Source: an uncultured Prevotellaceae bacterium
GTDB lineage: Bacteria; Bacteroidota; Bacteroidia; Bacteroidales; Bacteroidaceae
Reading direction: 5' to 3'
NCBI GenBank assembly: GCA_900314655.1
Contig: OMWC01000005.1
Span: 1-64,000 of the forward strand
Length of the DNA stretch: 64,000 nt
Part shown: piece by piece, positions 4,530 through 63,700 of the stretch
How positions within the stretch are numbered: position 1 is the first letter of the stretch
Layout of the letters: each line of letters opens with the position of its first letter
The notes under the pieces: generated by a model
What the model was told of the DNA's origin: nothing
Database searches by the model: none
Seen by the model: the letters and a program-made list of their open reading frames with translations, nothing else
Translations under genes and position numbers: made by a program

Positions 4530-4787
4530 ATTTCATTTTCTTCCATACTGCTATTCGTTTGTAAAGTTTATGCCTACAATCAAGATCGTCGAAATCATTG
4601 GCGTGATTCAAGGTTAGTATGTTTTTTGCGGATTTTGCCATTGAATTAGGTCGGAATGCTATTTGCTTCAACTATTTTGTCTTGGATTGTCAGGTTTTGA
4701 ATACAAAGGTAATGAAAAATATTGTAACCGCAGCAAGATGAAGTAATAAAATTTGTGGAATTTGAGTACGAATAACAAAAGTCGGAC

Positions 4788-4980: not shown

Positions 4981-5063
4981 TGCACGATTGCAAGGCTCCC
5001 TCCCTAAACAGCACCCTCCCTAAGCAGGGAGGGCGGGGTGGGTCCCCCCCCCTTTTTTTAACC

Positions 5064-5118
5064 CTTCACCGTAACACCCTGTCATCAAACGAGTTACGCT
5101 GTACGGTGAAGTTTTTTT
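5064..5118 (+). terminator. conserved hairpin with T tract inside the left direct repeat
   Basis: CTTCACCGTA (5064-5073) pairs with TACGGTGAAG (5102-5111) and is followed by seven T residues, as in an intrinsic terminator on the + strand. The 28-nt loop is conserved in the second repeat copy and contains a second possible pairing, GTAAC with GTTAC. No rightward gene ends just upstream, so it may act as an attenuator or be part of a small structured RNA rather than a plain terminator. Confidence 0.55.
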
Positions 5119-5203
5119 ATTTGTTGCAACTCTTTAATAATACACTTCATACGTCCAGAAATGTATCATCAGTTAGCTCTCGAATCATTTATAGCGCAAA
5201 TAA

Positions 5204-13626: not shown

Positions 13627-13872
13627 CTTACGAATGCCCCCATTCGCAAAGCACCCTCCCTAAGCAGGGTGGGCGGGGTGGGTCCCCCCCCCTTTTTTTT
13701 ACCCTTCACCGTAACACCCTGTCATCAAACGAGTTATGCCGTACGGTGAAGTTTTTTTGTTTCCTGAAACACTTTGAAAATACCACTTCCATACATCCAA
13801 GAATGTATCATCATTCAGTTCTCAGAACATTTATAGCAAAAAAATTTTGGCCATTTGGAAATATGTTTGCAC
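13627..13872 (+). repeat. long direct repeat, right copy
   Basis: Second copy of the segment at 4975-5240, about 8.64 kb downstream in the same orientation. The core 13650-13757 is nearly identical. The distal part has diverged but keeps AATGTATCATC, TTATAGC and a TATGTTTG box (13862-13869). The matching -33 box is displaced by small deletions, so its promoter is probably weak. The rest of the gap 13563-13947 contains no gene. Confidence 0.8.
13704..13758 (+). terminator. conserved hairpin with T tract inside the right direct repeat
   Basis: CTTCACCGTA (13704-13713) pairs with TACGGTGAAG (13742-13751), followed by TTTTTTT. It is the counterpart of the hairpin at 5064. Here it lies 140 nt after the last rightward gene of the helicase unit and can serve as its terminator. 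The loop sequence is conserved apart from two substitutions; one of them changes the possible inner pair GTAAC/GTTAC to GTAAC/GTTAT, keeping a G-U pair. Confidence 0.6.
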
Positions 13873-14124: not shown

Positions 14125-16560
14125 TTAATAGAAATATACGGCGTAGTCCTTGATGCTTCCGGGAGCGCCTTGCTCTGCGCGGGGGAGATACTCAAGAGCG
14201 GTGACGGTCTGCTCGCTGCCCAGGTCGATGACAAGCAGATGGGGCATTGCGGCCGAGCGCTCTGTCTGCCAATAAGTACTTTCCTGAAGGTCGAACACTT
14301 TGTCGCCCGTGTGATTGCCGTCATCGTTCTCGCTGTCGGCATACTTCGTGGACCAAGGCTCGCGCGAAAGCCGCTTGCCATCGGTGCCCTGCAGATAGAT
14401 TTCGGCAATGGCTGCCTGCGGTTTGCCGTCGTGGGTTGAGAGACATTGAATGGCCAGATAGCGGCCTTTCTGGGGAGAAGCGAAGCGGATGGTCTGCCAG
14501 CCATTGCCACTCGGCAGCTGTCCTTTGGCTGCGGGCGTACTGCTGTTCAGGTCGGGCTTGTCGCCGATGTTGTTGTGCTTGTTGCTCTTTTCCAGTTGCA
14601 GTTTGTTGAGTTCGGGCTTGTCTTGTCCCCATACGACGGGGTCTTTCGGCCCCAGAATGTCGAGGACGATGATTTCATTCTTGCCCTTTTTCAGCCAGCA
14701 ACCGGGCACGTAGAGCGTCTGCTGCGGACCGATGCTCCAGATACGTCCCATGGCATGACCGTTCACCCATACTTGTCCCTTGCCCCATGTCTCGAAGTTC
14801 AAGAAGGTATCGCCCACCTTTTTCAGGGTAAACTCGCCTTTGTAGTAACCGCCATCACTGAAAATAGTCTCGCGATACTTCATGTCATCGTGTCCCTGGC
14901 TCATCGCTTTCTTGATGGCTTCGTAGTCATCGCTCATGGTGATGATGCTCCAGTTCTTGAGGTTCCAGGTCATTTCATGGCCATCAATCTCAGCCTGCAG
15001 GAGCACTTCCTTGGTGATGCCCTTGAAGTCCTTGATGGCCCGTCCGAAATTGATGCGTCCCATGGCTTCCACCAGAATGTTGAGTGCCTGTCCTTTCTTT
15101 ACGGGTGGCAACACGATGGACTTTTCGTTCTTCACGCGGTCGATCTTTCCGATATACTTCCCGCCCAGATAGACCAGGGCAAAGTCGTGACAGTCGTTGA
15201 GGGTCAGCACGCTCTTCTCCGTCACTTCCGGTAGCGTCGTGGTATATTCTATCATACCCCATCCGCAGTCCATGTCTTCCATCGTGAGCACATCGCGGCT
15301 CTGGCGCTGAGCCGTCTGATAGTCGCTGATGCGCATCACCTTTTCCAGGGAGAACTTCGGAATGGTGATAATCGGTGCGGCAGGCTTGGGAATACTGGGC
15401 AAGACCCCCCTCCGACTCCCCCGAGGGGGAGAGTTTGTGTCGGCGTATTTCTGCATCATCTCGCGGAGTTCGTAGTATTTCGGTGTGGGCTGTCCGTATT
15501 CGTTGATGGGGGCGTCGTAGTCGTAGGAAGTCACGTCGGGGGCAAATCCCGGACTGTTGGCTCCTGCCCAATGGCCGAACGATGTGCCGCCGTGGGTCAT
15601 ATAGAGTGAGAAGGAGATGTTCTTGGAAAGCATTTCGTCCATGCCGTCCACCATGGCCTTGGCGGGACGCGTCTCATGGCGGGCTCCCCATTTGTCGAAC
15701 CATCCGCTCCAGAACTCAGAGCACATCAGCGGAGCATTGGGACGCAACTGCTTCAGGCGCTCGAACTGCTTGTCGATGTTGGCTCCGGTGCCAAAGTTCA
15801 TGGTCCATATCAGGTCGTCGAGTCCGTTCTTCGTAAAGTTACTGGCCCAGTCGCACTGGAAGAAAAGCAACCCACCCTCAGTCCCTCCCGAGGGGAGGGA
15901 GGCTTGATTACTCTTGCCGTTTAAGATATTTTTCCCTTGGGGAGAGAATGCTTCACGGACGATGTCGCGGATTTCCGAGATGTAGGCCTTGTCCTCACCA
16001 TACGAACCGTATTCGTTTTCCACCTGCACCATGATGATGGGGCCGCCGCGCTGGATGGTCAGCGGTGCAAGTTGTTCGCCCACTTTCTGTTCGAAGATTC
16101 TTACACGCTCCATGAAATAGGGATCCTGCTCGCGCAAACGGATGTCCTTCTTCTTGAGCAGCCACCATGGCAGTCCGCCCATTTCCCACTCGGCGCAGAC
16201 GTATGGACCGGGGCGCACGATGACGTACATGCCGTTTTTCTGTGCCAGACGGCAGAATTCTGCCACGTCGTTTTGGCCTGTGAAATCGAATTTTCCCTCC
16301 GCCTGTTCATGGATGTTCCAGAAAATGTAGATACACACGGCATTCATGCCCAGCGCCTTGCACATCTTGATGCGGTGGTCCCAATAGGGGCGTGGGATGC
16401 GCGGATAGTGGATTTCGGCAGCCTTCACCACGAATGGCTTGCCGTCGAGCAGGAAGGTCTTGTCGCCTGTGGTGAAGGTATGTGTGGATGGTTGGTGGCT
16501 CCTGGCCTGAAGGCTCAGTGAGGCCATCAATAAAAGGAATAATGTCAGTCTTTTTTTCAT
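14125..16560 (-). CDS. GH35 beta-galactosidase with C-terminal F5/8-type domain
   Basis: The frame is open from an ATG at 16584, but the start at 16560 gives a clean signal peptide (MKKRLTLFLLLMASLSLQA) and a 17-nt gap to the upstream gene. The TIM barrel shows GH35 motifs: KAAEIHYPRIPR, VIVRPGPYVCAEWE, the acid/base in VQVENEYGSYG (E183) and the nucleophile in MCSEFWSGWFDKWG (E282). Beta-sandwich domains follow, and the last 130 residues resemble an F5/8 type C (discoidin) carbohydrate-binding fold. It would remove terminal beta-galactose from pectin side chains in the periplasm or at the surface. Two in-frame palindromic elements interrupt it: ASLPSGGTEGGL at about residue 220-230, in the barrel, and SPPRGSRRGVLP at about 375-387, after the barrel. 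It ends the leftward group GH105-DUF2264-GH35. Confidence 0.9.
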   Translation of the reverse strand: MKKRLTLFLLLMASLSLQARSHQPSTHTFTTGDKTFLLDGKPFVVKAAEIHYPRIPRPYWDHRIKMCKALGMNAVCIYIFWNIHEQAEGKFDFTGQNDVAEFCRLAQKNGMYVIVRPGPYVCAEWEMGGLPWWLLKKKDIRLREQDPYFMERVRIFEQKVGEQLAPLTIQRGGPIIMVQVENEYGSYGEDKAYISEIRDIVREAFSPQGKNILNGKSNQASLPSGGTEGGLLFFQCDWASNFTKNGLDDLIWTMNFGTGANIDKQFERLKQLRPNAPLMCSEFWSGWFDKWGARHETRPAKAMVDGMDEMLSKNISFSLYMTHGGTSFGHWAGANSPGFAPDVTSYDYDAPINEYGQPTPKYYELREMMQKYADTNSPPRGSRRGVLPSIPKPAAPIITIPKFSLEKVMRISDYQTAQRQSRDVLTMEDMDCGWGMIEYTTTLPEVTEKSVLTLNDCHDFALVYLGGKYIGKIDRVKNEKSIVLPPVKKGQALNILVEAMGRINFGRAIKDFKGITKEVLLQAEIDGHEMTWNLKNWSIITMSDDYEAIKKAMSQGHDDMKYRETIFSDGGYYKGEFTLKKVGDTFLNFETWGKGQVWVNGHAMGRIWSIGPQQTLYVPGCWLKKGKNEIIVLDILGPKDPVVWGQDKPELNKLQLEKSNKHNNIGDKPDLNSSTPAAKGQLPSGNGWQTIRFASPQKGRYLAIQCLSTHDGKPQAAIAEIYLQGTDGKRLSREPWSTKYADSENDDGNHTGDKVFDLQESTYWQTERSAAMPHLLVIDLGSEQTVTALEYLPRAEQGAPGSIKDYAVYFY
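15401..15437. repeat. GC-rich palindromic element inside the GH35 gene
   Basis: CTCCCCCGAGGGGGAG at 15416-15431 is a perfect palindrome with C-rich and G-rich flanks. It is translated in frame as part of SPPRGSRRGVLP between the catalytic barrel and the sandwich domains. Confidence 0.7.
15871..15906. repeat. GC-rich palindromic element inside the GH35 gene
   Basis: TCCCTCCCGAGGGGAGGGA, with an upstream CCCACCCTCAG arm, is translated as ASLPSGGTEGGL in the catalytic-barrel region between FSPQGKNILNGK and LFFQCDW. Confidence 0.7.
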
Positions 16561-19421: not shown

Positions 19422-22400
19422 ATGAAAAAGAGTGTTAGGTGTTGGGTGATTGGTGTTGGGTGTTGGCTGATGGCGGTTGGTGCTTTTGGCCAAACGCCTT
19501 CGGCGCTGAACAGGAAGGAGTTTGCCAAGCATTGGGTGGTGGAGTCGGAATCGGCTGACTATCGGGTGACGTTCCGGGGCGATACGGCTGACATCGTCTC
19601 GCCAAAGGGACTGACGCTCTGGCGAAAGGAGAAGATGAAGGGGCGTGTCACGATAGAATATGATGCCTGCGTGGTGGTGGAGGAAAGTAGCAATGAACCC
19701 ACCAACCGGCTGAGCGACCTGAACTGCTTCTGGATGGCCAGTGACCCGAAATATCCCGACGATATCTTCCGCAGGATGAAGGAGCGCGGCGGCGTGTTCC
19801 TGAACAGCTATGCCCTGCGGCTCTACTATATGGGCTACGGCGGCAATCATAACTCGACCACGCGTTTCCGCCGATACGACGGCAATGAGGCTGCCATCAG
19901 CGACGCGGCAAAGCGTCCGGCCATCCTTCGGGAATATACCGACGAGGCGCATCTGCTGAAACCGAACCATTGGTATCATATCAGGCTGACGAGCGACGGT
20001 CATCGGGTGGCTTACTATATTGACGGAAAACGGCTGGTGGATTTCCGCGATGCGGAGCCTTACAGAGAGGGATGGTTCGGATTCCGCACCACGTTGTCGC
20101 ATACGCGCATCACGAATTTCAGCTATCGTTGCGAATCCTTGCAGCAGCAGAAAGCTCCGTTGCATTGGGTGGAAGACTCATCTCAGGCTCCCCAGGGAGG
20201 GAGGGCTGTGCCCGTAACTTTCGGCGTTCCCTTCGATGAAGGGGAAGTGACGGAAGGAACGGTGATGGCGCTGACGGATGCTTCGGGAAAGTCGGTGCCA
20301 ACGGATACCTGGCCTTTGGCTTACTGGCCCGACGGGTCGGTGAAATGGCTTGGGGCGGCGGCGACCCCCATTCGGCTCTCCCGTGAGGGAGAGTTGTTTC
20401 TTGCGGCTCAGAAAGGGCGTAAGAAAACCTCCCGTGTGGCGGCTCTCCAGATAACAGAAACGGCTTCGGGCCTGCGGGTGACGACCGATTCGCTCTCGGC
20501 GTTCATTCCAAAACAAGGCGCTTACTTGATGGATTCCCTCTTGTTGCAAAACCGAAAGGTGGCTGAACGATTGCGGTTGGTTTGCACCACGCAGAGCGAA
20601 CCCTATACAGAAACCACGCGGCAGGTCAGTTTCTCCGACTACCAGAGCGAGATCCGTTCGGTCATCGTGGAGCGGAAAGGCAATGTGAGCGCTGTAGTAA
20701 AGATTGAGGGCGTGCATGTATCTTCTCCCTCCCTCACAGGGAGGGATGGGGTGGGTCTCCTTCTCCCCTTCGTCGTCCGCCTCTATTTCTATCAGGGCAG
20801 CCGCGAGGTGAAGATGGTGCATTCGTTTGTGTTCGATGGCGATCAAAACCGTGACTTTATCCGGTCCTTGGGTGTGAAGATGGATGTTCCTCTGCGCGAC
20901 GAACTTTATAACCGCCATGTGGCTTTCTCAACCGGTCAGGGCGGCGTGTGGAGCGAGCCCGTGCAACCGCTCGACGGAAGGCGCGAACTGAGATTGCCGC
21001 TCCAACAGGCGGACTCAAACCGGCAGCCGCGTCCCGACGAGAGTCTGCCCGAGGATCATCGGGGACAGCTCACCGTTCAACAGCTACAGATGATGGGGCA
21101 GCGCGTGCCGCCCTACGAATCGTTCGACAAGAAGAACCAGACGCTGATAGACGAATGGGCTGCGTGGAATACCTACAGACTGTCGCAACGGTCGTCGGAA
21201 GGCTTCACCCTGCGCAAACGGGCCAACGACGATAATCCCTGGATTGGAACTTTCGACGGACGGAGGGCCGACGGTTATGCCTTTGTGGGCGATATGACCG
21301 GCGGAATGGGTTTGGCCTTGAAGGATTTCTGGCAGTCGTTCCCGTCGGCAATGGAGATATCGGGCACAAAGGGCGACAAGGCCACGCTGACGGCATGGCT
21401 CTGGAGTCCGGATGCTGAACCCATGGACTTGCGCCATTATGACAATGTGGCCCACGGATTGCTCTCCGCCTACGAGGATGTGCAGGAAGGAATGAGCACT
21501 CCCACGGGTATTGCCCGCACCTCCACCCTCATGTTGCTGCCTGCCGATGGCTATCACGGGAAACAGGCTTTTGCAGAGGATGCACGGCGGATGACGCACG
21601 GTGCGCTGCTGTTGCCCACACCCGAATACCTGCATCAGAAACAGGCCTTCGGCATCTGGAGTCTGCCCGACTCATCGAATGTTGAGCGCGCAAGGGTGGA
21701 AAAGCAGTTGAACGATTATATCGACTATTACCAGAAACAGATAGAGCAGCACCACTGGTACGGGTTCTGGAACTATGGCGACGTGATGCATACCTACGAT
21801 GCCGAGCGCCACGAGTGGCGTTACGACGTGGGCGGATTTGCCTGGGACAATACCGAACTGGCCAGCAACATGTGGCTCTGGTACAGTTTCCTGCGCACGG
21901 GAAGGGCCGACCTCTGGCAGATGGCTGAGGCCATGACCCGCCATACGGCCGAAGTGGATGTCTATCACTCAGGTCCCAACGCCATGCTGGGCACTCGTCA
22001 TAACGTGAGCCATTGGGGATGCGGTGCGAAGGAAGCCCGAATCTCGCAGGCAGCCTGGAACCGCTTCTATTATTATCTGACCGCCGACGAACGCACGGGC
22101 GACCTGATGACCGCCGTGAAAGATGCCGACCAGATGCTCTATACGCTCGATCCCATGCGACTGGCTCAGCCCCGCGGTGAATATCCCTGCACGGCTCCTG
22201 CCCGGCTGCGCATCGGGCCAGACTGGCTGGCCTATGCCGGCAACTGGATGACCCAGTGGGAACGAACGCGCGACAACCGCTATCGCGACAAGATCATAGC
22301 CGGCATGAAAAGCATTGCAGCATTGCCCCATCAGATGTTTACCGGGCCTTTGGCCTTAGGCTACGATCCCGCCACGGGCGTTATCACCACCGAATGCGAC

Positions 22401-23207: not shown

Positions 23208-26200
23208 TTAAGGGTTAGAGTTCGAAGTGAAATCGTTGCGGTATTCCTTGGGCGTCTTTCCGTATTTCTGGCGGAAGCATTTCGTGAAGTAACCCGGGTC
23301 GCGGAAGCCTACGGCATAGGCTATCTCGGTGAAGTTCATGTCGGTGGTCTCCACGTAGTTGAGGGCTTTGGTCAGTCGGATTTCCTTCACCAGATCCACA
23401 GGGGCAAAGCCGGTGAGGCTCTTCAGTTTCTTGAAGAAGGGTGAACGTGAGAGGCCCATCTCTTCGGCCAGCGTGTTCACGTTGAAGTCCTCGTTCTGCA
23501 GGTTCTTCTCGATAATCTGGTGAACATTGCGCACGAATTCCAGGTCTTTCTGAATGAGGTGGGATTCGTAGGGGGGAACCCCTTCCAAACCTCCCCGAGG
23601 GGAGGCTTCCTGCTCTCCCCCTCGGGAGAGTTGGTGGGGGGGTATTACCATCTTGCGCTGGAAGATGCGCTGTTCCTCGAGCAACTGATTGATGCGCGCC
23701 TGTAGCAGTTCGCTTGAGAAGGGTTTGGTGATATAGGCGTTGGCACCGGTCGATATGGCCTGCGTATGGATTTCGTCGCCCTGTTTGGCAGTGAGGATGA
23801 TGACTGGTATGTGCGAAATGTTGAAGTCTTGGCGGATGCGCTTCAGCAGTTCCATGCCGTCCATCTTCGGCATCATCAGGTCGCTGACAATCAGGTCGGG
23901 GTGATACTGATACACTTTCTTCAGTCCTTCTTCGCCGTCGTGAGCCGTGAGCACCGTGTATTTATCCTGCAGTTGGAGACTCAGCATATGACAGAGGTCA
24001 ATGTTGTCTTCGATGAGGAGGAGGGTGGGTAAGACCTCCTCCAAACCTCCCCGAGGGGATGCTTTCTGCTCTCCCTCTCGGGGGAGTTGGTGGGGGATCG
24101 AGGGTTGGGGTTGGGCTCCCACATATTCCTCTATCTCATCGGCATTGAAATTCTCCTTCTCGATTGGGAGTTCGATGATGAAGGCGACACCTTTATCCAA
24201 GTTTTCAGCCCAGATATGTCCGTGGTGCATCAGCACGAACTCGCGACTTAGTGACAGCCCAATGCCTGTACCTGTTGAGGTGGTGTCGTCGCTGCGGTTT
24301 TCAGCCATGGCGAAGCGTTCGAAGATTTCCTCCAGTTTGTTCTCGGGAATGTTGGCTCCGTCATCTTCCACGCGGATAATAACCCCCTCCAAACCTCCCC
24401 GAGGGGAGGCTTTCTGCTCTCCCCCTCGGGGGAGTTGGTGGGGGGTTATCGACACGGTAATCGTGCCTCCCTCGCGGGTGTATTTGAAGGCGTTGTTGAT
24501 TAGGTTATTGATGACCACACCAATTTTCTGTCGGTCGCACCAGGCCATCACATGCTCATCGGGGAGAAGGAACTCATAGCTGATATCGCGTTCCTGCGCA
24601 TGGATGCGGTATTCCTGCCGGAAGGTTTCCAACAGTTCGTTAAGGTCGGTAAATGAGACGTGCATCTTCATCTTTCCGTTCTGTACCTTGCGGAAGTCGA
24701 GAATCTGGTTTACCAACTGCAGCATTTTCTTGGCATTGTTGTCGATGAGCGACAGATATTCCTTGCCCGAGGGTGACAGCCGTTCGTTTTTCTTGAGTTC
24801 CTCAATGGGACTCTTGATGAGGGTGAGTGGCGTGCGCAGTTCGTGGCTGATGTTGGTGAAGAAACGGATCTTCAGTTCCGCCAGGCGGTCGTTCACGTAG
24901 GTCTCATTTCGCATCTTGATCATATAGAGCACTAACCGGAAGGCTCCGTAGAGTAGGGCCAGCAGCAGCAGGGTGTAGATGATATAGGCCCACCACGAAG
25001 CCCACCAAGGTGGTAGAATCCGGATTTCGAGAATCCGTTCTGCTGCACCATTTCCCAGGGTCTTCACACGGAAAGTGTAGCGCCCTGGCGGCACATTGGC
25101 ATAAGAGGCCATGCGGTTCAGTCCGTTGGTATGCCACTGGTCTTCGTAACCGTCGAGGATATAGCTGTATGCCACTTGGTTTTGGTCGGTGAAGTTGAGC
25201 GAAGCGAACTCGATGGAGAACATGTTCTGGTTATGTTTCAGAACGATTTCCTTGGCATAGCGAACGGATCCATTATAGATGGCAGGCTGGAAATCGCTGA
25301 GCGGACGGTTATGTACGCGGAAGTCAACGATATAGATGGGATACTGACGATTGCTCTCGTTCATCACCACCTTGGGGTCGAAAGTCAGCACACCTTGCCG
25401 GCAAGCGATGAGGATGCGTCCGTCCTGTAGGCAGGCAACAGTGTTGTCCTCCACATTCACGACGGGGAATCCCGAATAGCGGTCGTAACTGCGGATGGAA
25501 GTATCTTCGTCGGGATTCAGACTGGCCAGTCCGTTCTCTGTGCAGATCCACAGGTGGTGCTGATGATCCTCGATGATACTGGACACGACATCTCCCGATA
25601 GACGTTCGGTAAATGGATAGTTCTTCAGTAGCGGACGGTGGGCCTGCTCGTCGTAGCCCTCCAACAGGTTCATGCCGCCGCCAAACATTCCGAGCCAGAT
25701 ACGTCCCTTGGAGTCTTTATAGAGTGAGAAGATGTCGTTATCCACCGTTCCTGCATCCTGCTGCTCGCGATAGATTTCGAAATGGATGTCCTGAGGCCTT
25801 TGGAACTGGCCTGAGAATGACATCAGTCCGTCGGTGGTTCCCACCCATAAGCGTCCGTTGGCATCTTCGGCGATGGAGCGCACGTTGAGGTAGAGTTCGT
25901 ATTTGGGGTAGTCTTTAAACTCGTTGTTGCGGTTGATAAACCGTGTTTCCCCATTTCGTTGCTCAATGAGATTCAGACCTCCGCCGAAGGTGCATGCCCA
26001 GATGCGGTGGTGCGAGTCCTCGAAGATGTAATAAACCCGGTCGTCGTTTAGCGAATAGGAATCGTTGGGATCATGGACGAAATGTTCAAGTGTGGAGTGT
26101 AGAGTGTAGAGTGTAGAGTTATGATTACCTTTTACTTTTATTATTCCATTCCCCTTTGTGCAGAACCAAAGATTGCCTTCATGATCCTCCATGATGTGAT

Positions 26201-27530
26201 AGACGTTGCCGATGTTCTGGATGCCTGTCGGCTTCACGGTCTGTGTCTTGGGGTCGATACAGAGCAGCATACCGTTACGGGTGCCTATCCAGAGGTCACC
26301 GTTCTTCTGCTGGTAGAGGGCGCGAATGCCTCGTGAGTCGCCTGTCTCATGTTCTTGTGAGAGAAGGTCGGGCATGAAAAAGGTGAAATGGGATGGTGTG
26401 AAATTCACCTTATAGACCCCGTTTGTGGTTGACGACATCCAGAGCAGTCCTTCGCTGTCAATGTCCAGATCGAAGAAGCGGAGAGCATTGACAGCCGTTG
26501 TAGAGAACGGACGCAGGTCGGCGACATTCTGCATCAGTTCCGTCTGATGGTCATAACGCCATACTTCACCGTTTTCGTGGAGGAAGAACAGTCCGTTTGT
26601 CCCAGCATCGCAGACCTTTCTCGAAGCAATCGTTTCGCCTTGTGGAATGGGGAAGCGCTGGAGCATGCCTGTCAGCGGATGCTGGCAGATGAGCGTCTGG
26701 GTGACACGGTTGAAGAACCACTGCCGCTGCTGTTTGTCTGTGAGGACCGGAATCTCCTGCGAAGTATAAGGGCTCACCGAACCGTTCTTGCAGTCTATCA
26801 CATAGGCTTCGCCCTCGTCGTTGCCTAGATAGATGTGGTTACCCGTGTGATAGTAATAGGTATAATGCTTGTCGGGTTTGATGAGCGACAGGTATTGGTT
26901 GCCCTTGGGACGTGGAACCACGTCCACTTTGAAGTCGGTGCCCAACCAGTAGAGATAGCGGTCATTGACGCCGAGGATATTGTGCTGCAACTTGAACGTT
27001 GCAGGGTCGATGGCCAGTGAACCGTCGAAGATGCGCTGAATCTTGATTTTTCCCTCCTTATCCACGTTGGCTTCATAAAGATTCTTGTTGCGGGTGAGCA
27101 GTAGCACGTGTCCGTTGGTGGCCTGCTGAATTTTGATGACCAGCATATTTTGGGAAATCTGCTTCAATTCATCGTAGATTTCGTGGAACAATTCATTTCG
27201 CTTGTCATAGAGGTAGAGGCGGTTATCTACATTACGAATCCACAGGTAGCCGTCGCCGTCTTCTACCATGGAGATTACTTTTCGGGGGGGGATGTCCGAC
27301 TCTTGGCGGCTACGGGTCACAAAGGGCGTAAACGTATCACCGTCAAAAGAGCACAGGCCGTACCACGTGCCAAACCAGAGAAAACCGTCCTTGCCTTTCA
27401 GCGAGCAATAGACAGTATTGCTGGGCAGCCCTTCTTCCAGCGTGTAGTGCTGTACTATCATACCATTCTGGGCATGGATGGGTAGCCAGCATGCCAGCAT
27501 GAAAATGAATGACAAGGCAATCTTCTTCAT
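23208..27530 (-). CDS. hybrid two-component regulator (HTCS) of the pectin locus
   Basis: The 1440-aa product has a signal peptide (about 1-20). Two Reg_prop beta-propellers follow (WFGTWYGLCSFDG, LWIGTRNGMLLCI, IWLGMFGGGMNLL, LWICTENGLASLN), then a Y_Y_Y domain (about 780-850), one membrane span (about 853-873), a HisKA domain with H896 (NISHELRTPL), a HATPase domain, a receiver with phospho-acceptor D1217 (LIVSDLMMPKMDG) and an AraC-type HTH at the end. Such proteins sense oligosaccharides in the periplasm and activate the adjacent SusC/SusD and enzyme genes. Four repeat-derived inserts are in frame: STLYTLHSTLEHF in the propeller (about 472) and three copies of PHQLPRGGEQKASPRGG. One of these lies in the HATPase domain between two strands (about 1029-1050), one between HATPase and receiver (about 1145), and one between receiver and HTH (about 1297). 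A TATCTTTG box at 27543-27536 lies only 5 nt before the ATG. The gene is divergent from susC. Confidence 0.95.
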   Translation of the reverse strand: MKKIALSFIFMLACWLPIHAQNGMIVQHYTLEEGLPSNTVYCSLKGKDGFLWFGTWYGLCSFDGDTFTPFVTRSRQESDIPPRKVISMVEDGDGYLWIRNVDNRLYLYDKRNELFHEIYDELKQISQNMLVIKIQQATNGHVLLLTRNKNLYEANVDKEGKIKIQRIFDGSLAIDPATFKLQHNILGVNDRYLYWLGTDFKVDVVPRPKGNQYLSLIKPDKHYTYYYHTGNHIYLGNDEGEAYVIDCKNGSVSPYTSQEIPVLTDKQQRQWFFNRVTQTLICQHPLTGMLQRFPIPQGETIASRKVCDAGTNGLFFLHENGEVWRYDHQTELMQNVADLRPFSTTAVNALRFFDLDIDSEGLLWMSSTTNGVYKVNFTPSHFTFFMPDLLSQEHETGDSRGIRALYQQKNGDLWIGTRNGMLLCIDPKTQTVKPTGIQNIGNVYHIMEDHEGNLWFCTKGNGIIKVKGNHNSTLYTLHSTLEHFVHDPNDSYSLNDDRVYYIFEDSHHRIWACTFGGGLNLIEQRNGETRFINRNNEFKDYPKYELYLNVRSIAEDANGRLWVGTTDGLMSFSGQFQRPQDIHFEIYREQQDAGTVDNDIFSLYKDSKGRIWLGMFGGGMNLLEGYDEQAHRPLLKNYPFTERLSGDVVSSIIEDHQHHLWICTENGLASLNPDEDTSIRSYDRYSGFPVVNVEDNTVACLQDGRILIACRQGVLTFDPKVVMNESNRQYPIYIVDFRVHNRPLSDFQPAIYNGSVRYAKEIVLKHNQNMFSIEFASLNFTDQNQVAYSYILDGYEDQWHTNGLNRMASYANVPPGRYTFRVKTLGNGAAERILEIRILPPWWASWWAYIIYTLLLLALLYGAFRLVLYMIKMRNETYVNDRLAELKIRFFTNISHELRTPLTLIKSPIEELKKNERLSPSGKEYLSLIDNNAKKMLQLVNQILDFRKVQNGKMKMHVSFTDLNELLETFRQEYRIHAQERDISYEFLLPDEHVMAWCDRQKIGVVINNLINNAFKYTREGGTITVSITPHQLPRGGEQKASPRGGLEGVIIRVEDDGANIPENKLEEIFERFAMAENRSDDTTSTGTGIGLSLSREFVLMHHGHIWAENLDKGVAFIIELPIEKENFNADEIEEYVGAQPQPSIPHQLPREGEQKASPRGGLEEVLPTLLLIEDNIDLCHMLSLQLQDKYTVLTAHDGEEGLKKVYQYHPDLIVSDLMMPKMDGMELLKRIRQDFNISHIPVIILTAKQGDEIHTQAISTGANAYITKPFSSELLQARINQLLEEQRIFQRKMVIPPHQLSRGGEQEASPRGGLEGVPPYESHLIQKDLEFVRNVHQIIEKNLQNEDFNVNTLAEEMGLSRSPFFKKLKSLTGFAPVDLVKEIRLTKALNYVETTDMNFTEIAYAVGFRDPGYFTKCFRQKYGKTPKEYRNDFTSNSNP
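23572..23645. repeat. 66-bp double palindrome in the HTCS gene, copy 1
   Basis: Two hairpins, CCTCCCCGAGGGGAGG and CTCCCCCTCGGGAGAG, are joined by CTTCCTG and flanked by CTTCCAAA and TTGGTGGGGG. It is translated as PHQLSRGGEQEASPRGGLEG in the receiver-HTH linker and nearly identical to copies 2 and 3. Confidence 0.8.
24026..24099. repeat. 66-bp double palindrome in the HTCS gene, copy 2
   Basis: Same architecture as the copy at 23572 with a few substitutions, translated as PHQLPREGEQKASPRGGLEE in the HATPase-receiver linker, next to the repetitive VGAQPQPSI. Confidence 0.8.
24380..24448. repeat. 66-bp double palindrome in the HTCS gene, copy 3
   Basis: Same architecture, translated as PHQLPRGGEQKASPRGGLEG. 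It sits inside the HATPase domain between TITVSIT and VIIRVEDDG, where related kinases have a short hairpin loop. Confidence 0.85.
26089..26120. repeat. CTCTACACT tandem repeat in the HTCS propeller
   Basis: Four near-exact units of AGTGTAGAG-type sequence are translated in frame as STLYTLHSTLEHF between propeller strands. Confidence 0.65.
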
Positions 27531-38442: not shown

Positions 38443-41400
38443 TTAGGGGAGGATCTCCACATGTTTAACCCTTTCCCTTCTCCAAGTATAAACCACATGG
38501 ATGTGGCCGTCTTTGGTCTGGATAATTGATGGGTAGCTATACTGGCTGATGGGCGAATCCTCTAAGGTCATCCAGTGCTCCCAATGGATGCCGTCCTTCG
38601 ACTTGAGCAGGGCCAGCGGGGTGCGTGCACCTTTCTCTTTGTCGGGTTCAATGGGCCAGTGGTTGCAGATCATTGCAAACGACCCGTCTTGTAGAGTAAC
38701 GGCATCCAGGCCTGAATTATTGTTTGGCGTATCAATCAATTGGAGTTTGCTCCAGGTTTCTCCGTTGTCGCTGCTGTAGGTGATGCCGACGTGGCGGCTG
38801 CGGGTGCGGCAGACTGCCTGCAGACGACCATCGGGCAGGAAGATGATGGAGGGCTGTATGGCTTTCACGCCTTCGTCGGCTTCCACGAAGGGTGAGCGTT
38901 TCCACGTCTTGCCCATATCGTCGGAGTATTCGAAGTAGAGTTTCCAGCCGTCGCGCTCATCACTCGTAGGAGCAATCAGGCGGCCTTTCGAAAGAACGGG
39001 CTTGTTCTTGACGGGGCCATAGATGCCGTCAGGCAGTGGTTCGCGCTGGCTCCACGTCTTGCCACCGTCCTTCGAACGGCATACCCATCCTTTCCAGCCG
39101 GCCACATTGGGACCAATCTTGAAATAGAGCTGCAGCTCACCCCCGGGCACTTGATAGAGTACGGGATTCCAGCAAGCCTCGCGGTAGTTGTTGCCGATGG
39201 CTGCTTCACCGCGGTTGGTCTTCCATGAAGCCCACTCGGGAATCGGCATGAACTTACCCTTGAAGGCCGGTTTCTGGGGAGTTACCACCTGACTGACTTT
39301 ACCTTCAGGGTTCGGTTTGAGGGGTTTCAGTTCCACGCCGTCGGCAACCATCTGCGGAGCCGTCCACGTCTTGCTGCCTTTGGGCTTGCGGCTCACCCAG
39401 ATGCTTACATCGGGGTTGCGCTCTTTGGTGCCGCCGAAATAGGTGGCCACGAGGTCACCTTTCGTGGTTTCCACGATGGAAGCGGAATGGCACTGGGGGA
39501 AGTCGGCTTCCTCGTAGAGCCATTCGTCGGCGAGGATTTTTCCAGCAGTGGGACCGCTGGACGCCTGACTGGCTTTAGCATTCATCATGGCGATGCGGTC
39601 GGGGGCTGACTCGTTGAGGTCGTAGCTGCCGGAACCGAGGGTTTTCTTGGTGCCGTCGGGGAGATAGAGGGTAGCTTCGGTGTTGGCCGGAATCTCCACA
39701 TGCCAGAGCAGCCGGCCCTGCTCTTTCTTCCACTGGCTGACAATCGTGCCATAGATACTTTGGTAGGAAGCACGGATGTTGTTCATCTCGGGAACGGAAA
39801 AATCGGGCTTCAGGGTGATATGACGGAACCCGTCGGTGCTCTGGATTCCGGCCACATCCTCATAGAGCCATGAGATGAGGTCGCCCAGAAGCATCACGTG
39901 GTTGCCGGAGTTCATCTTCGGCGAGGCAGTGTCGCCGTTCCAGAGTTCCCAGATGGTGGTGGCGCCCTTCTCGGCCATATAGCCCCACGAGGGGTAACTC
40001 TTGTTGGTGGCCAGGTGCCAGGCCACGTCTGAGCGTCCCATATCGGTCAGTCCGTGCATCAGCCAACTGATGCCGATGACGCCGCAGGACACATGTCCAC
40101 CGTTGTCGGTGATGATGTTCTTGATGATATTCTTCTCCACCTCCTGCTTCACGTAGTCATCGTCAATCATTCCGAAAGTAAGCGGCAGCAGGTTGGCCGT
40201 CACTGTGTTGTTGCCGTAGAAAGTGCTGTCGGGATAGAGGATATGTCCGGGCACGGTAGTCGTTCCGCGCTTCACGGTCAGGAACTTCTTGTTGAAGGCC
40301 TCTTTGGTCAGTGCGGCTTCGTCAGTGAATTGCTGGGCATCAGCAGTGAGTCCCTGCTTCCGGGCAAAGTCAGCCATCATCCGGTTGATTCTGTAATAGT
40401 AGGCCGTGGCGATAAGCGTTCCGTCGGTAACGCGGGCGGGGTCTTCACTATGGATGAGTTCTTCCCTTTCGGGCGGCACACACCAGTCACCGTATTTGTC
40501 GCGGGGCATCAGTCCGTCCTGTTGGTATTGGTATTTCAGATGCTCAAGCCAGCGTTTCACGTCGGGGTAGAACTTGCGCATGGGCTGTTCGTCGCCATAT
40601 TGGCGAATCATCATGTCGAGGGCCATCGGCAGGGCAGCAGGCCAGGTCACGTTGTCAGAATAGTAGTTCCAGAACGCGGGAGCCACATCAGGGATGCATC
40701 CGTCCTCGCGCTGTGCCTCGGTGATGTCGCGTGCCCATTTGGCATAGAGCGTATTGTTGTCGAAGAGGAATGCTTCGCCATAGCAGCCGCGGGTGCGGTC
40801 GCCGAGCCACGGCTGGCGTTCGTCGCGCTGCGGACAGTCAACGGGCAGTCCTTTATAGTTGGCCAGCACACCCCAGTAGGCATTGTGGAACACCTTCTGA
40901 AGAATGGTGTCGGTGGTCTCGAAGGTGCCTGTGGAGGGGATGGCATCCGAAACTATTTCGGCGATAAAATCGCCGGGTAAGGGACGGGACCTCAAGCCCT
41001 TGATTTCTGCGTAGCGGCCTCCGTGATAGACGAAGGTGGGATGCCACCAGGTGTTGTTTTCCTTGCCGTCGGCGATATAGCGGTCGGTGCTCAGGGCATG
41101 GCGGAAATTCTCGCGCCAGAGATTACCGTCGGCATCTAGTTTCTCGGCGTAGCGGATGGTGATGGTGTCACCGGCTTTGGTTCCGTTGAGGCGGAGACTG
41201 AGCCATCCGGCAAAATTCTGTCCGAAATCCACGATAACGGTTGATGGGTGTTGGGTGTTGGGTGTTGGGTGTTGGGTGATAGTTTTGGGCTGAAGTGTTT
41301 TCACCACTTTCATGTTGGGACTCATCGCTCCGCGTAGGGTGCCCAGGGGAATGGCCACGCGTTCGGCTTTCTCCCATCGGGAGTCGTCGAAGCCCGGCTT

Positions 41401-47576: not shown

Positions 47577-47634
47577 CAATCGTTATAACGTCATAACGAA
47601 AATTCTTCACTCTTCACTCTTCACTCTTCACTTA
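47577..47634. repeat. CGTTATAACG and CTTCACT repeats between esterase and GH43-type genes
   Basis: TCGTTATAACGTCATAACGA is followed by about four units of CTTCACT. The TGA stop of the GH43-type gene lies inside the repeat. A related CGTTATAACG motif lies at 52069 in the next gap of the same operon. Confidence 0.65.
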
Positions 47635-54192: not shown

Positions 54193-56724
54193 TCATTTCT
54201 CAAGAATTTTAATCAGTTTACGATACTTCCCGCGGTCAATGCGCTCGATAACGCCTTGCTTATACCAATCCGAGCACAGATTTGCGGAACGCTTCACCTG
54301 ACAGTCGAGAGCTTTGCTCACGTCTTGCACCGTAAACTCCTTGGGCAGACTGTTGAACGCCTCCATGTTCTTCGTCAAGCGCATCACCTGTCCCACTCTC
54401 TGCGCGCCTTCCAGACTGTCGCTCACCAGCTTGCCGAAATAGTAGAGTTGCGACTCGAAGATGTAATCGGCCAGAAGAAGGGCCAGCTCTATCGACGAGA
54501 ACTTGAGGTTCAGCTTCCCTGATTCCTCAAAGGAGTCCAGCGAGTTCATGATGGCATCCACGGCAGCCAGACGGACGGCTATCAGCGGCGGACGCTTGCG
54601 GAAGTAGTCACCCAGGCGGTCATCGTCGAGCGAGAGGGCGAAGGCCTTCTGCTGCCCCCAATAATAGAGGGCATCGGCGAAGGAGGTCTGCTTCCCCAGA
54701 CGGTCTTGCCAACGCCTGGGAACACTGACCTGCTGCTCCAGATTCACGTCCCATCCGCAGCGCAGCAGGCGGTGGCCTACGGTGCGTAGCCAGTCGGAGT
54801 CCTTATCCGTCCGTCGGCGTGCCTGCCGCTTCATCATCTCGTAGCGCTGGCCATACTGTACACCCATAATCAGACGTGTGGGCAGTCCGTCGAGGCAATT
54901 CCTGGAGGTGATTTTCTTTTGCAGGGCATCGGGCGTACCCGTCACCACGAAGTTGAAGAATGCCGGAACGAGACCGTTTCTCGTCATCGCAGAGCGGCTT
55001 TCGGAACCCGTCAGTTCGCAGTCGAACGATTTCTTGTCGAAATCCTGCGAAGAGTTCCACGAGTTCTTCTCGTAGTTGATTTTCGATGAGAGTTCGCTCT
55101 CGAAGTTGTAGCAAGCCACCTGCCGCTGCTCCGAGCCGAAACTGTTCTTGGCGTCCATGCAGCGCTCCAGCTTCTGCTTCAGCGTGCAGTCCGTGGGCAG
55201 GTAGCGGATGGGGAAATGCTTCTCTTCGGGTATGTCGTCCTTCTTGGCCTTGGCCATCGAGAGCCGCTTCATCTCGGCCTGATAGTTCTCTTCGGCCTTA
55301 CGTCCGCGGGCATCCTCCTGTCGGAGCGGTTCCATAATCAGGCGGTCCAGTTCGCGATAGTCGCCCTTTCCCGTTCCGGCATCGCCGATGATGTAGGTCA
55401 TGAAGGTCAGCGCGAGGTCTGAGCCGTCGTACCAATTTCGCAGACGGCATCCCGATAGAAGCGTGCCGAACATGGTGCCTGCCACCAGTATTCCGTTAAG
55501 ACGAGAGTACCTTGGCAGAACGGCGCACACGGGCCGCCATACGGGGCTTTCAAACCAAGGAGCGAAATCGTCGGCCCATTTTTCGTAATCCCATTCAGCC
55601 GCTTGGTCAATGCCCTTGTTGCCTGACCGTATGCCCTCTGCCTTTCCTTCTCCCGACAGGGTGATACCCATACCTTGAAGGAAGGCCACGAGCCGTCGGG
55701 GGATGGCTGCATATCGTCGCGCACCGATAGCCGAGCCAGCACACTGCCGTCGCTCCTGCTCCGGAAGTCCGTAATCAGGAGTGACCCTGACCACCATGTC
55801 CTCGCTGAAATCGCAGATGTAGCGCATGCATTGCTGCACCAGCGCATAATAGCAGGCGTTACGCTCGCCGACAGCCGGAAGGTGCCCATACTCGGCGCGT
55901 AGCCAAGAGTCTGCAATAGTCGCGTATGGCACGCCGTGATAGGAAGCCCCTTCAGCCCCCTCCAAACCTCCCCCCTGGGGGAGGCTTTCTGTGAGGTTGG
56001 AGCTTCCCCCCAGGGGGGGAGTGAGGGGGGCTCCTTTTCTATACGTTTCTCCATATTCTTTTTCAAATGCTTCATTGTCATAATTCAAAAGGTTTTCAAG
56101 TTCAACATAAAGAATGTCTGCGCGTGTGCAACCGTAGGAGAGCCTTGTGGCATCCTTACAGGCTTCGTCGAGTTTCACGCTTAGCTCTTTGGCAAGCCAT
56201 TGCTGATTGTCAGCAAGATTGCCGCGTTCGGGGTCGGCCTTGAATACCAGTCTCAGGCCTCTGCCCGACGGAGTGATATGCGCAAAGAGGATACCGAATT
56301 GCTTGCAGAAAGCGTCGGCATAGCCTTCACCCTTCGAAGCATCTGACGGCCATTTCTTAGCCCATCCCTCGAAAATCTCCCTCGGGTTTTTCACTCCGTC
56401 AATATCCAGCATACAGAGTCCGTTGAGTCTGACAAACTCCGACTTTCGCCATGCGGCCATGCAAGGCTTGCCACAGATCATCTTTTCTGACTTCGTGATT
56501 TCCCCTGCTGAGAACACCCACGCGGGCAGTTTCTTCTTCAGTTTTGCCTTCAGTTCATGAAAATATTTCTTTTCCTTTTCTCCCTGTGCCAGTTCCATGC
56601 TGTTGGCAGCAGCATGGATTTGGCGGATCGTATCCTCGACAAACGGATTGTCTATCACTTGCAGGAAGTTTTCCCTTGTTGCCGGTAGGCAGTAAGAATT
56701 GATTTTCTGTTGGATGTAAAACAT
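54193..56724 (-). CDS. mobile-element primase-helicase-like protein (BT4734 N-domain plus DUF3987)
   Basis: The 843-aa product starts with a BT4734/VirE-N-like domain (about 30-230) with LCMLDIDGVKN and FGILFAHITPSGRGLRLVFK, a primase-polymerase-type fold. After about residue 350 comes a DUF3987 ATPase/helicase-like domain: VLPRYSRLNGILVAGTMFGT, the P-loop-like YIIGDAGTGKGDYRELDRLI, and a helical C-terminal region. Such proteins are common in Bacteroidales prophages and integrative elements and probably serve their replication. Between the two domains an in-frame double palindrome encodes APLTPPLGGSSNLTESLPQG (about 231-256). Its start overlaps the upstream 166-aa gene by 70 nt. No integrase is visible nearby. 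Confidence 0.82.
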   Translation of the reverse strand: MFYIQQKINSYCLPATRENFLQVIDNPFVEDTIRQIHAAANSMELAQGEKEKKYFHELKAKLKKKLPAWVFSAGEITKSEKMICGKPCMAAWRKSEFVRLNGLCMLDIDGVKNPREIFEGWAKKWPSDASKGEGYADAFCKQFGILFAHITPSGRGLRLVFKADPERGNLADNQQWLAKELSVKLDEACKDATRLSYGCTRADILYVELENLLNYDNEAFEKEYGETYRKGAPLTPPLGGSSNLTESLPQGGGLEGAEGASYHGVPYATIADSWLRAEYGHLPAVGERNACYYALVQQCMRYICDFSEDMVVRVTPDYGLPEQERRQCAGSAIGARRYAAIPRRLVAFLQGMGITLSGEGKAEGIRSGNKGIDQAAEWDYEKWADDFAPWFESPVWRPVCAVLPRYSRLNGILVAGTMFGTLLSGCRLRNWYDGSDLALTFMTYIIGDAGTGKGDYRELDRLIMEPLRQEDARGRKAEENYQAEMKRLSMAKAKKDDIPEEKHFPIRYLPTDCTLKQKLERCMDAKNSFGSEQRQVACYNFESELSSKINYEKNSWNSSQDFDKKSFDCELTGSESRSAMTRNGLVPAFFNFVVTGTPDALQKKITSRNCLDGLPTRLIMGVQYGQRYEMMKRQARRRTDKDSDWLRTVGHRLLRCGWDVNLEQQVSVPRRWQDRLGKQTSFADALYYWGQQKAFALSLDDDRLGDYFRKRPPLIAVRLAAVDAIMNSLDSFEESGKLNLKFSSIELALLLADYIFESQLYYFGKLVSDSLEGAQRVGQVMRLTKNMEAFNSLPKEFTVQDVSKALDCQVKRSANLCSDWYKQGVIERIDRGKYRKLIKILEK
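55954..56034. repeat. double palindromic element inside the primase-helicase gene
   Basis: Hairpins around CCTCCCCCCTGGGGGAGG and CTTCCCCCCAGGGGGGGAG, linked by TTTCTGTGAGGT, are translated as APLTPPLGGSSNLTESLPQG between the two domains. Confidence 0.8.
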
Positions 56725-60780: not shown

Positions 60781-63700
60781 TTACATTGACTCTACAATTT
60801 TGATTTCATCTTCCGTCAGCCCATACAGCTGATAGACGCGCTGGTCTATTTCGCGGTCGGTCTGGGCAATCTGTTCCGAGAGCTGCTGGCAGTCGTTGCG
60901 GTATTGGTTGAAGTAGTCTTCCCATTCGTCTTGCTGCGCGAGCGAGAGGTTAATCTTCTGCTTCTTCAGCTCAGCCACGAAGGCCTTGAATTCCAGCTGG
61001 TCGAATGTCTGCAACGCCGTCGTTATCTTCACGCCCTCGAAGTTTTCCGAAAGGCGGCGCAGGAAACGAGCGCGCTTCTCCTGCAATTGCTTATGAAGGG
61101 ATAAAATCGTGTCGGCGAGAGAGAATAAAGCGTCATCTTCGCTAATATTAGGAATAGGTATTTTGCCAAAATACTTCCATATCAGTTGATAGCCATTCTG
61201 AATTTGGGAGCAGAACTTCGTTATCAGCCACCAGCCCATACGAGAATTGAAAATGGCAAGCAACGCCTTGCACTCAGTTGGGATAAACCACATAGAATTG
61301 TTTGAATAGAATCCCTCCGTGTCGTAAATAAAACAAGGCTTTACTTGGAATGCTTGATACATTATCTTAGACTTGGCAAACTGATTGTAATAATCGCATG
61401 CTCGTAACTCCCACCAAAAATCTCCCTTGTCTGTTCTTTTCCTGCCCTTTTCAGCAAATGGTTCCAGCCATTCAGCTATTGAAGGATATTCTGCCTTTAG
61501 ATAGTTCCATGCATCAGCTTCATTATCGAACGTCTGCTCCCTTTGTGTCCAGCCTTTCTCAAACAAAATGAGATAGCTGACAGCTTCTGGCTTTCCGTAT
61601 GGAGTGATATTCCGTCCTTGCAAGAAAGGATAGATTCTTTCTTTGGCTCTTTCGTCCTCAGAGACGATTCTTTGGTATGTATTGGCATCAATAAGGAAAG
61701 CCTCTGAAAGTCCTGTTAATACACCTCTGTATGCTTCACCTCCGATAAAGTCTCTGAGAGTTTGATGACAAGACGAAAGGCGTTCCAGCATAGCATTTTC
61801 TTTTTGAGATGAGATAACCCATGTGTCGCTGGTGAATTGCGAAAGGTCAAACACCTCTTCCATGTTCTTTACATTCTGAATAAAATCTTGTGCATCAGCT
61901 GCTTTAAGAACAGACACACACATTTGTTTGGCTGGTTCGGAATTACGTCCAATGAATATGCAGGGATAGGTGGTAGCGCCTTCGAATATTTGTATATCGC
62001 CAAAATCGATTAGTCTTTCCAATCGTTTACTCAAGAAATATGCTCTCAGTTCTTTGCCATAGCCTGCCTGTAGCCACTTATTAGGCATTATGTAGGAAAC
62101 AATCCCATTAGGTTTAGAAAGTTGGAAACCCTTTTCAACAAATACACAATATAAGTCTCCTCTTTTATTATATGTCCAATATCCAACCTTTTGCAATTGG
62201 TTGGAAGTATCGAGTATGCTTTCAAGATGCACATACGGCGGATTACCAATCACGACATCGAATCCTCCGCGCTCGAACACTTTGGGGAACTGCTCCTGCC
62301 AGTTGAAGGCTTTGTCGCCTGCAACGGCGGGGTCGCTGATGAGCGAGTTGCCGCACTTGATGTTCTGGTTCAGCGAGTTCAGTTTGCGATGGGGCTTGGC
62401 GGTGCGCAGCCAGAGGGCTAGCTGGGCAATCTCCACGCTCTCCTCGTTGATGTCAACGCCGTAGAGGTTGTTCTCCAAGATGCTGTTTTCCACATCTTGG
62501 AACTGGATGGAATATCCCGACACCTTGGTCTCCATCTCGTCGATGAGCTTGTGCTCGTCCATCAGGAAACGGAGGGCGGCATTGAGGAAGGCGCCACTAC
62601 CACAGGCGGGGTCGAGGATGGTGATTTGCAAGAGCCATTCGCGGTATTGCTGCAACTGGTCGAGCAGGCGCTTCTTGGTCTGCATCTGGCGGCGTTGGTC
62701 GGAGAAATATTCTTCTTCAACGATGCCAAATTGCTGTTTCTTCTCAGCACAGAGCCGTCCCACGGTATTCTCCACGATGTACTTCGTAATATACTGAGGA
62801 GTATAGAACACGCCGTCTTGCTTGCGCTTGGAGAGCCTCTCCCCCAGCCCCTCCCCCATAGGGAGGGGAGCCGATGCCGATTGTATCTGTTGCGTCACCT
62901 CTTCAATCTCCGAAAGCGAGTTCTCGAAGATATGGCCGAGGATGTTCACGTCCACATCGCTCTCGAAGTCGTATTCCGAAAGCTTCCGGCAATGCTCAGC
63001 CAGCAGGTCATCAGAAATCGTAATATTATCGAGCACCTCGTCGGGCTTGAACAATCCGCCGTTATAGGCGAATATCTCGTATTTCTTACCCTTGAAGCCC
63101 GTATTCATATAGCCGAAATACTTCTTCAAACGGTCGTAGAACGGGCGGTATTCGTCCATCTCCTTCAGTTGTTCCCATTGGTCGATAATCTGCACCATCG
63201 AGTTGGGCGGCAGCAGACCGCAATCCTCTGCGAAGAAGATGAAGAGCAGGCGGTCGAGCAGCTTCTGAGTCTTCTTGAAGAGCAACAGCTGCCACTCCTT
63301 CTCGTCCTCGCCTTCGGCGACGGGATTATTCTTCAGGATATCGGTAAAGAGTGCGCGCTTGAACTGCGAGTAGTCACGATAAAGCGCTTTGGTAATCTGG
63401 TCTTCTGAGGACACCGATTCGCCTTTCATCTGCAAGGCAACGCCTTTGGCCACCTGCTGCCATGCCAGGCAGAGGTAGAGCTCGCGGAATTCGTCTTCGG
63501 TAAGCGTGAACAGATTCCACTCTCGGTATTCCACGGCGTTATCAATGTAGAGGCGCAGCTTCTCGAAGTTGGAAATCACCACAAGCCAGCATTGAGGATG
63601 CTGGCTCTTGTAGTTGAAGGCCTGCGGCTCCACTTTCGAGAGGTCGGTGGTCTTATGGTCTTTCAGCTCTATCACGCCAATCACCTTACCGTCGAGCTGG

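Follow-up and report, generated by a model that had tools for sequence, protein, structure and literature searches.

How a single sensor-regulator gene came to carry three look-alike in-frame inserts, one of them within the ATP-binding domain of its kinase, is the question raised by this locus in the window (the whole stretch of DNA that was analyzed, 64 kb in length). The gene encodes a 1440-aa hybrid regulator with propeller, Y_Y_Y, HisKA, HATPase, receiver and AraC-type domains, and the three inserts to which an earlier note had drawn attention are real. Each is a 66- to 69-bp copy of a dispersed palindromic repeat of approximately 66 bp, for which we coined the label REP-A (REP-B and REP-C are likewise our own labels for other C-rich palindromes), and the three share one reading frame of this minus-strand gene, their peptides being variants of TPHQLPRGGEQKASPRGGLEGV. 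The earlier description of the copies as near-identical applies well to two of them: compared with copy 23577, the first along the plus strand, identity amounts to 94% for copy 24381 and 83% for copy 24033. An assembly collapse or expansion at these repeats is unlikely, since repeat inserts occupy these three sites in a sister genome that was assembled separately, and REP-A is also present at site 3 in a third species.

Coordinates of the regulator gene, its repeat copies and other features discussed in the text (window positions unless residues are indicated)
Feature	Position	Strand	Context	Basis
Host gene	23208..27530	-	1440-aa hybrid two-component system regulator	Pfam: Reg_prop, Y_Y_Y, HisKA, HATPase_c, Response_reg, HTH_18/AraC
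REP-A copy, site 1	24381..24449	-	HATPase beta-hairpin; peptide PHQLSRGGEQEASPRGG	
REP-A copy, site 2	24033..24101	-	HATPase-receiver linker; peptide PHQLPREGEQKASPRGG	
REP-A copy, site 3	23577..23645	-	receiver-HTH linker; peptide PHQLPRGGEQKASPRGG	
Left-half hairpin, site 1	24394..24409	.	equivalents 23590-23605, 24046-24061 at other sites	hairpin scan
Right-half hairpin, site 1	24417..24435	.	equivalents 23613-23630, 24069-24086 at other sites	hairpin scan
(TCTACAC)n heptamer array, same regulator gene	26089..26119	-	in frame, NSTLYTLHSTLEH; C-rich palindrome in that loop in sister species	
Half-element	15404..15433	-	in frame, 819-aa beta-galactosidase-like ORF	
Half-element	55956..55991	-	in frame, 843-aa ORF	
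Insert in LigA	residues 179-200		adenylation domain, 88-352	Pfam
Insert in exonuclease VII large subunit	residues 207-228		domain, 136-446	Pfam
Insert in MFS domain	residues 206-229		domain, 31-385	Pfam
Insert in HAD domain	residues 116-138		domain, 6-195	Pfam
Insert in NAGLU domain	residues 404-428		domain, 116-456	Pfam
Insert in ArgC-type NAD domain	residues 114-138		domain, 14-154	Pfam
Insert in LacZ TIM barrel	residues 688-710		domain, 420-754	Pfam

The earlier placement of the second and third inserts in linkers held up, as did that of the first, which is flanked by two strands of the HATPase fold. This first insert lies inside the HATPase_c domain (residues 999-1124), and its position there is agreed upon by predicted structures and by an alignment with solved kinases, in which the gap falls at the same place. 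The HisKA-HATPase segment (243 aa; 11 sequences) was modeled. With the insert, two strands (residues 144-153 and 169-177 of the segment; mean pLDDT, 72.8) enclose residues 157-167, which are part of the insert and have a pLDDT of <50; in the natural insert-free orthologue L128, the same two strands (144-151 and 157-163; mean pLDDT, 79.1) are connected by a joint of about five residues. In the models, insert 1 thus prolongs, as a low-confidence loop, the turn of a beta-hairpin ahead of the G1 box.

As had been noted before, each copy contains two short hairpins: REP-A is built from two inverted REP-like halves, each of which forms one, and the ends of a copy are themselves inverted repeats (AACCCCC/GGGGGTT). 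The best DNA fold of each copy is one long hairpin, which beats 200 out of 200 shuffles (z, -3.3 to -4.8). REP-A has its paired inverted halves and whole-element hairpin in common with REPINs and its terminal inverted repeats in common with MITEs. It also occurs in the form of half-elements, and where both halves are present they are separated by a variable spacer. A search of the window against Rfam at gathering thresholds gave zero matches, and, judged by eye, REP-A halves showed no GT[AG]G foot of the kind found in canonical REPs; neither a target-site duplication nor a related autonomous IS was seen by eye for REP-A, clean empty sites being few, and a transposase for REP-A was not found in this analysis. 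That the element is open in all six frames was rejected as an adaptation, as this is unremarkable at its composition and was shared by 954 of 2000 shuffles. A simple scan counted 24 C-rich hairpins of this kind in the window; 20 block-shuffled windows averaged 1.1 and never exceeded 3, and the hairpins are therefore not a product of chance. Nineteen of these 24 lie inside ORFs, which cover 83% of the window (with the gene list picked from ORFs); these hairpins show no avoidance of genes there. Two further palindromes in the window deserve mention. A C-rich one at 62848-62870 (SAPLPMGEGLGERL) lies in frame within a restriction-methylase-like gene of 1065 aa, and a 134-base unit headed by a REP-B palindrome occurs twice in intergenic DNA (5010-5143 and 13650-13783; 92% identical).

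With copy 24381..24449 as the query, 42 REP-A matches (E ≤ 0.001) were found on many of the 64 contigs of the 3.5-Mb source genome, which is of a rumen Prevotella type, and 41 in the sister genome G363, next to 0 to 10 in eleven other genomes with a relative of the regulator. At E ≤ 1e-12, a match was present in 20 of the 398 genomes of the genus that were examined, in a patchy distribution. Viral contigs were rejected as the source: the REP-A core occurred there only once (L210 4578-4652, from the 145-kb contig IMGVR_UViG_3300032030_000015, in frame in a 176-aa ORF), and the REP-B core was absent from the viral contigs searched. Copy 24381 is no closer to its neighbors in the regulator gene (94% and 95% identity) than to copies on other contigs (97% and 95%). 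Between this genome and its sister, orthologous elements had 416 of 469 bases in common and their flanks 2824 of 3211 (p = 0.70), a comparison that rests on the pooled total of seven sites, three of which were clearly and two slightly more alike than their flanks and two less so.

The regulator is far from the only protein to contain the repeat. For the REP-A copy set, which was limited to matches spanning 55 or more bases of the query (counted as last minus first aligned base), coding position was assessed on the basis of codon usage over 180 bases of each flank, excluding the element and disallowing stops. This strict test was passed by 33 of 55 entries (19 of 32 from this genome and 14 of 23 from G363) and failed by 22, with two L112 entries left out as duplicates of a region already represented. 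It is a conservative test, as two failing copies in acyltransferase genes nonetheless lie inside Pfam matches, and at least 19 of the 32 copies examined in this genome are coding by its standard. A Pfam match (E ≤ 1e-5) was obtained for 18 of the 20 host ORFs scanned, and inserts sit within the matched domains of unrelated enzymes, acyltransferases among them, and even of LigA, the DNA ligase that is essential in bacteria. In a beta-galactosidase gene (L022 1410-4649 and L112), about seven in-frame repeat-like stretches were observed; the G363 copy of the beta-galactosidase has an 11-base direct duplication, at which there is either a frame shift or an assembly error.

Comparison with relatives revealed both occupied and empty versions of these loops. 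At all 19 REP-A sites aligned to G363, the length difference was a multiple of three (non-zero at 14), although these sites are not a random sample, the G363 stretches having been chosen for a nearby REP-A or for matching a locus, and 6 of the 19 failed the strict coding test in the source genome. Among 17 aligned regulators, only those of the source genome and G363 have an insert at site 1; the 15 other homologues have a short loop there, and orthologues at 45 to 60% identity show this loop to be an ordinary one. In closer relatives, the picture is more varied. At site 1, where the source genome has REP-A, L126 (RUG249) has REP-A with a different right half and L127 (RGIG2694) a related hybrid, and there is no insert in L128 (RUG12994), nor more than a short loop in L129. 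At site 2, the source genome has REP-A, both L126 and L127 have a different palindrome in pairs, and L128 has a linker of ordinary, acidic sequence. At site 3, finally, REP-A is shared by the source genome and L128, L126 has a heptamer array and L127 the third palindrome, REP-C. At a fourth site of the regulator, near residue 482, the source genome carries a heptamer array and L126 a palindrome, and near residue 190 a half-palindrome in L127 corresponds to ordinary residues in the others, with little change in length. The same kind of difference between species was found in the 1298-aa and 462-aa genes of the region; no such repeat difference was seen among the compared species in its SusC-like, SusD-like, GH3, 472-aa and 802-aa genes. 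To judge from the aligned sequences, the cases in the regulator and in the 1298-aa and 462-aa genes resemble an overwriting of loop DNA more than they do a clean insertion.

Heptamer arrays with differing units were found at three places in the window (41245-41278, 47604-47632 and, in the regulator, 26089-26119). The unit of the array at 47604 matches many places in G363, and heptamer arrays therefore are dispersed families as well. Separately, (GTGTTGG)n heptamers encode the signal-peptide cores of two secreted enzymes (CWVIGVGCW and LGVGCWVLGV; window positions 19432-19482 and, on the minus strand, L022 ~4550-4649), a simple repeat here serving as a hydrophobic leader.

The explanation that we consider probable is that REP-A is a non-autonomous repeat, similar to REPINs or to the palindromic elements (RPEs) of Rickettsia, which is tolerated in the form of disordered loops, with unrelated families turning over at the same sites. 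A REPIN- or MITE-like element, presumably mobilized in trans by past transposition, would have landed within genes as well as between them. Copies that broke the frame or the fold would have been purged by purifying selection, leaving those that are in frame and in exposed loops, where each might add some 22 Pro/Gly/Arg-rich residues as a flexible and probably neutral loop without breaking the protein. Such loops would subsequently turn over, with REP-A, REP-B, REP-C and heptamer arrays taking each other's place at matching positions between sister species, for which insertion plus deletion, recombination between repeats and repair are candidate routes. Counting against this explanation is that several loops show overwriting in place of lengthening, which simple insertion does not predict.

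The paired halves and their fold into one long hairpin would also suit a classical REPIN, moved by a resident RAYT, i.e., a Y1 transposase of the IS200/IS605 type. Indeed, there are three Y1_Tnp matches in the source genome, two of them above the cut-off, and the NHLH and YIHQNP motifs of a 179-aa gene fit a subclass of Bacteroidetes RAYTs that is described as having atypical palindromes (PMC6006769); the same source reports atypical structures for subclass 2.6 and GT[AG]G as the canonical REP foot (PMC6006769). However, none of the three Y1 loci has a REP-A match, and the flanks of those on L010 and L009 hold other palindromes. Moreover, none of the seven Y1_Tnp candidates in the REP-A-rich genome G363 reaches an E value of 0.001, and the 179-aa RAYT is present in only 4 of 35 genomes searched, including one (G007) that itself lacks a REP-A match. 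Unlike in REPIN/RAYT systems, no cognate RAYT flanked by REP-A was found in the source genome or G363, and we regard this alternative as unlikely. A Y1 transposase as the current driver is likewise unsupported, given a sister without a Pfam Y1_Tnp match and source Y1 genes flanked by other palindromes. The Y1 genes in question (L010 1110-1850 and L009 390-1690) have flanking palindromes of their own (CAGCCGAATTTGCAATTCGGCTG and CACAGGGGGTCTGTCCCCCTGTG, respectively).

A second alternative, which we judge to be very unlikely, is that selection favored the inserted peptides for some function, such as that of flexible linkers tuning signaling or of surface loops. Consistent with this, 14 of 23 sites use the frame encoding TPHQLPRGGEQKASPRGGLEGV (p = 2e-6) and 19 of 23 share one orientation (p = 0.003), counted over the few sites that remained when only coding copies were used, 5 of the 33 were dropped for want of the anchor motif and the other 28 were merged by orthology. 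The bias to one frame and one orientation is real by count; hydropathy as a cause of the frame bias was not significant (rho = -0.35, p = 0.50). On the other hand, the hosts are unrelated enzymes, and the very same loops are empty or contain unrelated peptides in close relatives. Finally, local duplication within the regulator gene, either recent or with the copies held uniform by gene conversion, as the earlier note had it, is hardly credible: the three copies do share one gene and are 83 to 94% alike, but dozens of equally similar copies exist elsewhere, across contigs and species, different repeats occupy the regulator sites in sister species, and orthologous copies diverge, overall, as their flanks do.

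Returning to the reading of REP-A as a tolerated repeat, protein-coding palindromes as such are already known, the closest known systems being RPEs and intragenic GTAG/CGTC REPs. RPEs are short dispersed palindromes of ~150 bp that lie in frame in unrelated protein genes, the hosts of which look functional (PMC10969869). Like RPEs so described, REP-A is dispersed and palindromic and is found in frame in intact ORFs of many unrelated genes (by the strict count given above); unlike them, it measures ~66 bp, resides in Bacteroidota and occupies loops at which unrelated repeat families replace one another. GTAG/CGTC REPs have been found in several species as monomers and dimers inside the ORFs of known proteins but are mostly intergenic (PMC3733652), whereas in the window 19 of 24 hairpins are in ORFs and the GTAG tag was not seen by eye. 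In-frame segments that are short and vary from genome to genome at a given locus have been described in E. coli and S. aureus (PMC2884548); in contrast to those, the segments at REP-A sites belong to dispersed repeat families. By analogy, REP-A appears to work like an RPE. In the literature searched, outside which most subscription papers fell, neither a spread of coding palindromes through the genes of a Prevotella-type genome nor a mutual replacement of palindromes and heptamer arrays within shared loops was reported; within that literature, the clade of the host and the exchange between repeat families look new.

We speculate, with considerable doubt, that a still active process in this clade might overwrite protein surface loops with repeat cassettes, exchanging unrelated palindromes and heptamer arrays within shared codon stretches and always in multiples of three, and that repeat DNA might constitute a shared stock of loops for essential enzymes and sensors. 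Bacterial repeats are usually regarded as intergenic, whereas here coding DNA, that of DNA ligase included, is as open to them as intergenic DNA. In annotation and structure work, the peptides that such repeats encode risk being taken for functional insertions. Sister species show a single loop in its occupied, its swapped and its empty state, and therefore the absorption of selfish or repeat DNA by proteins, as well as the process of exchange, can be tested gene by gene; the aspect most worth following is the exchange of unrelated repeats within shared loops.
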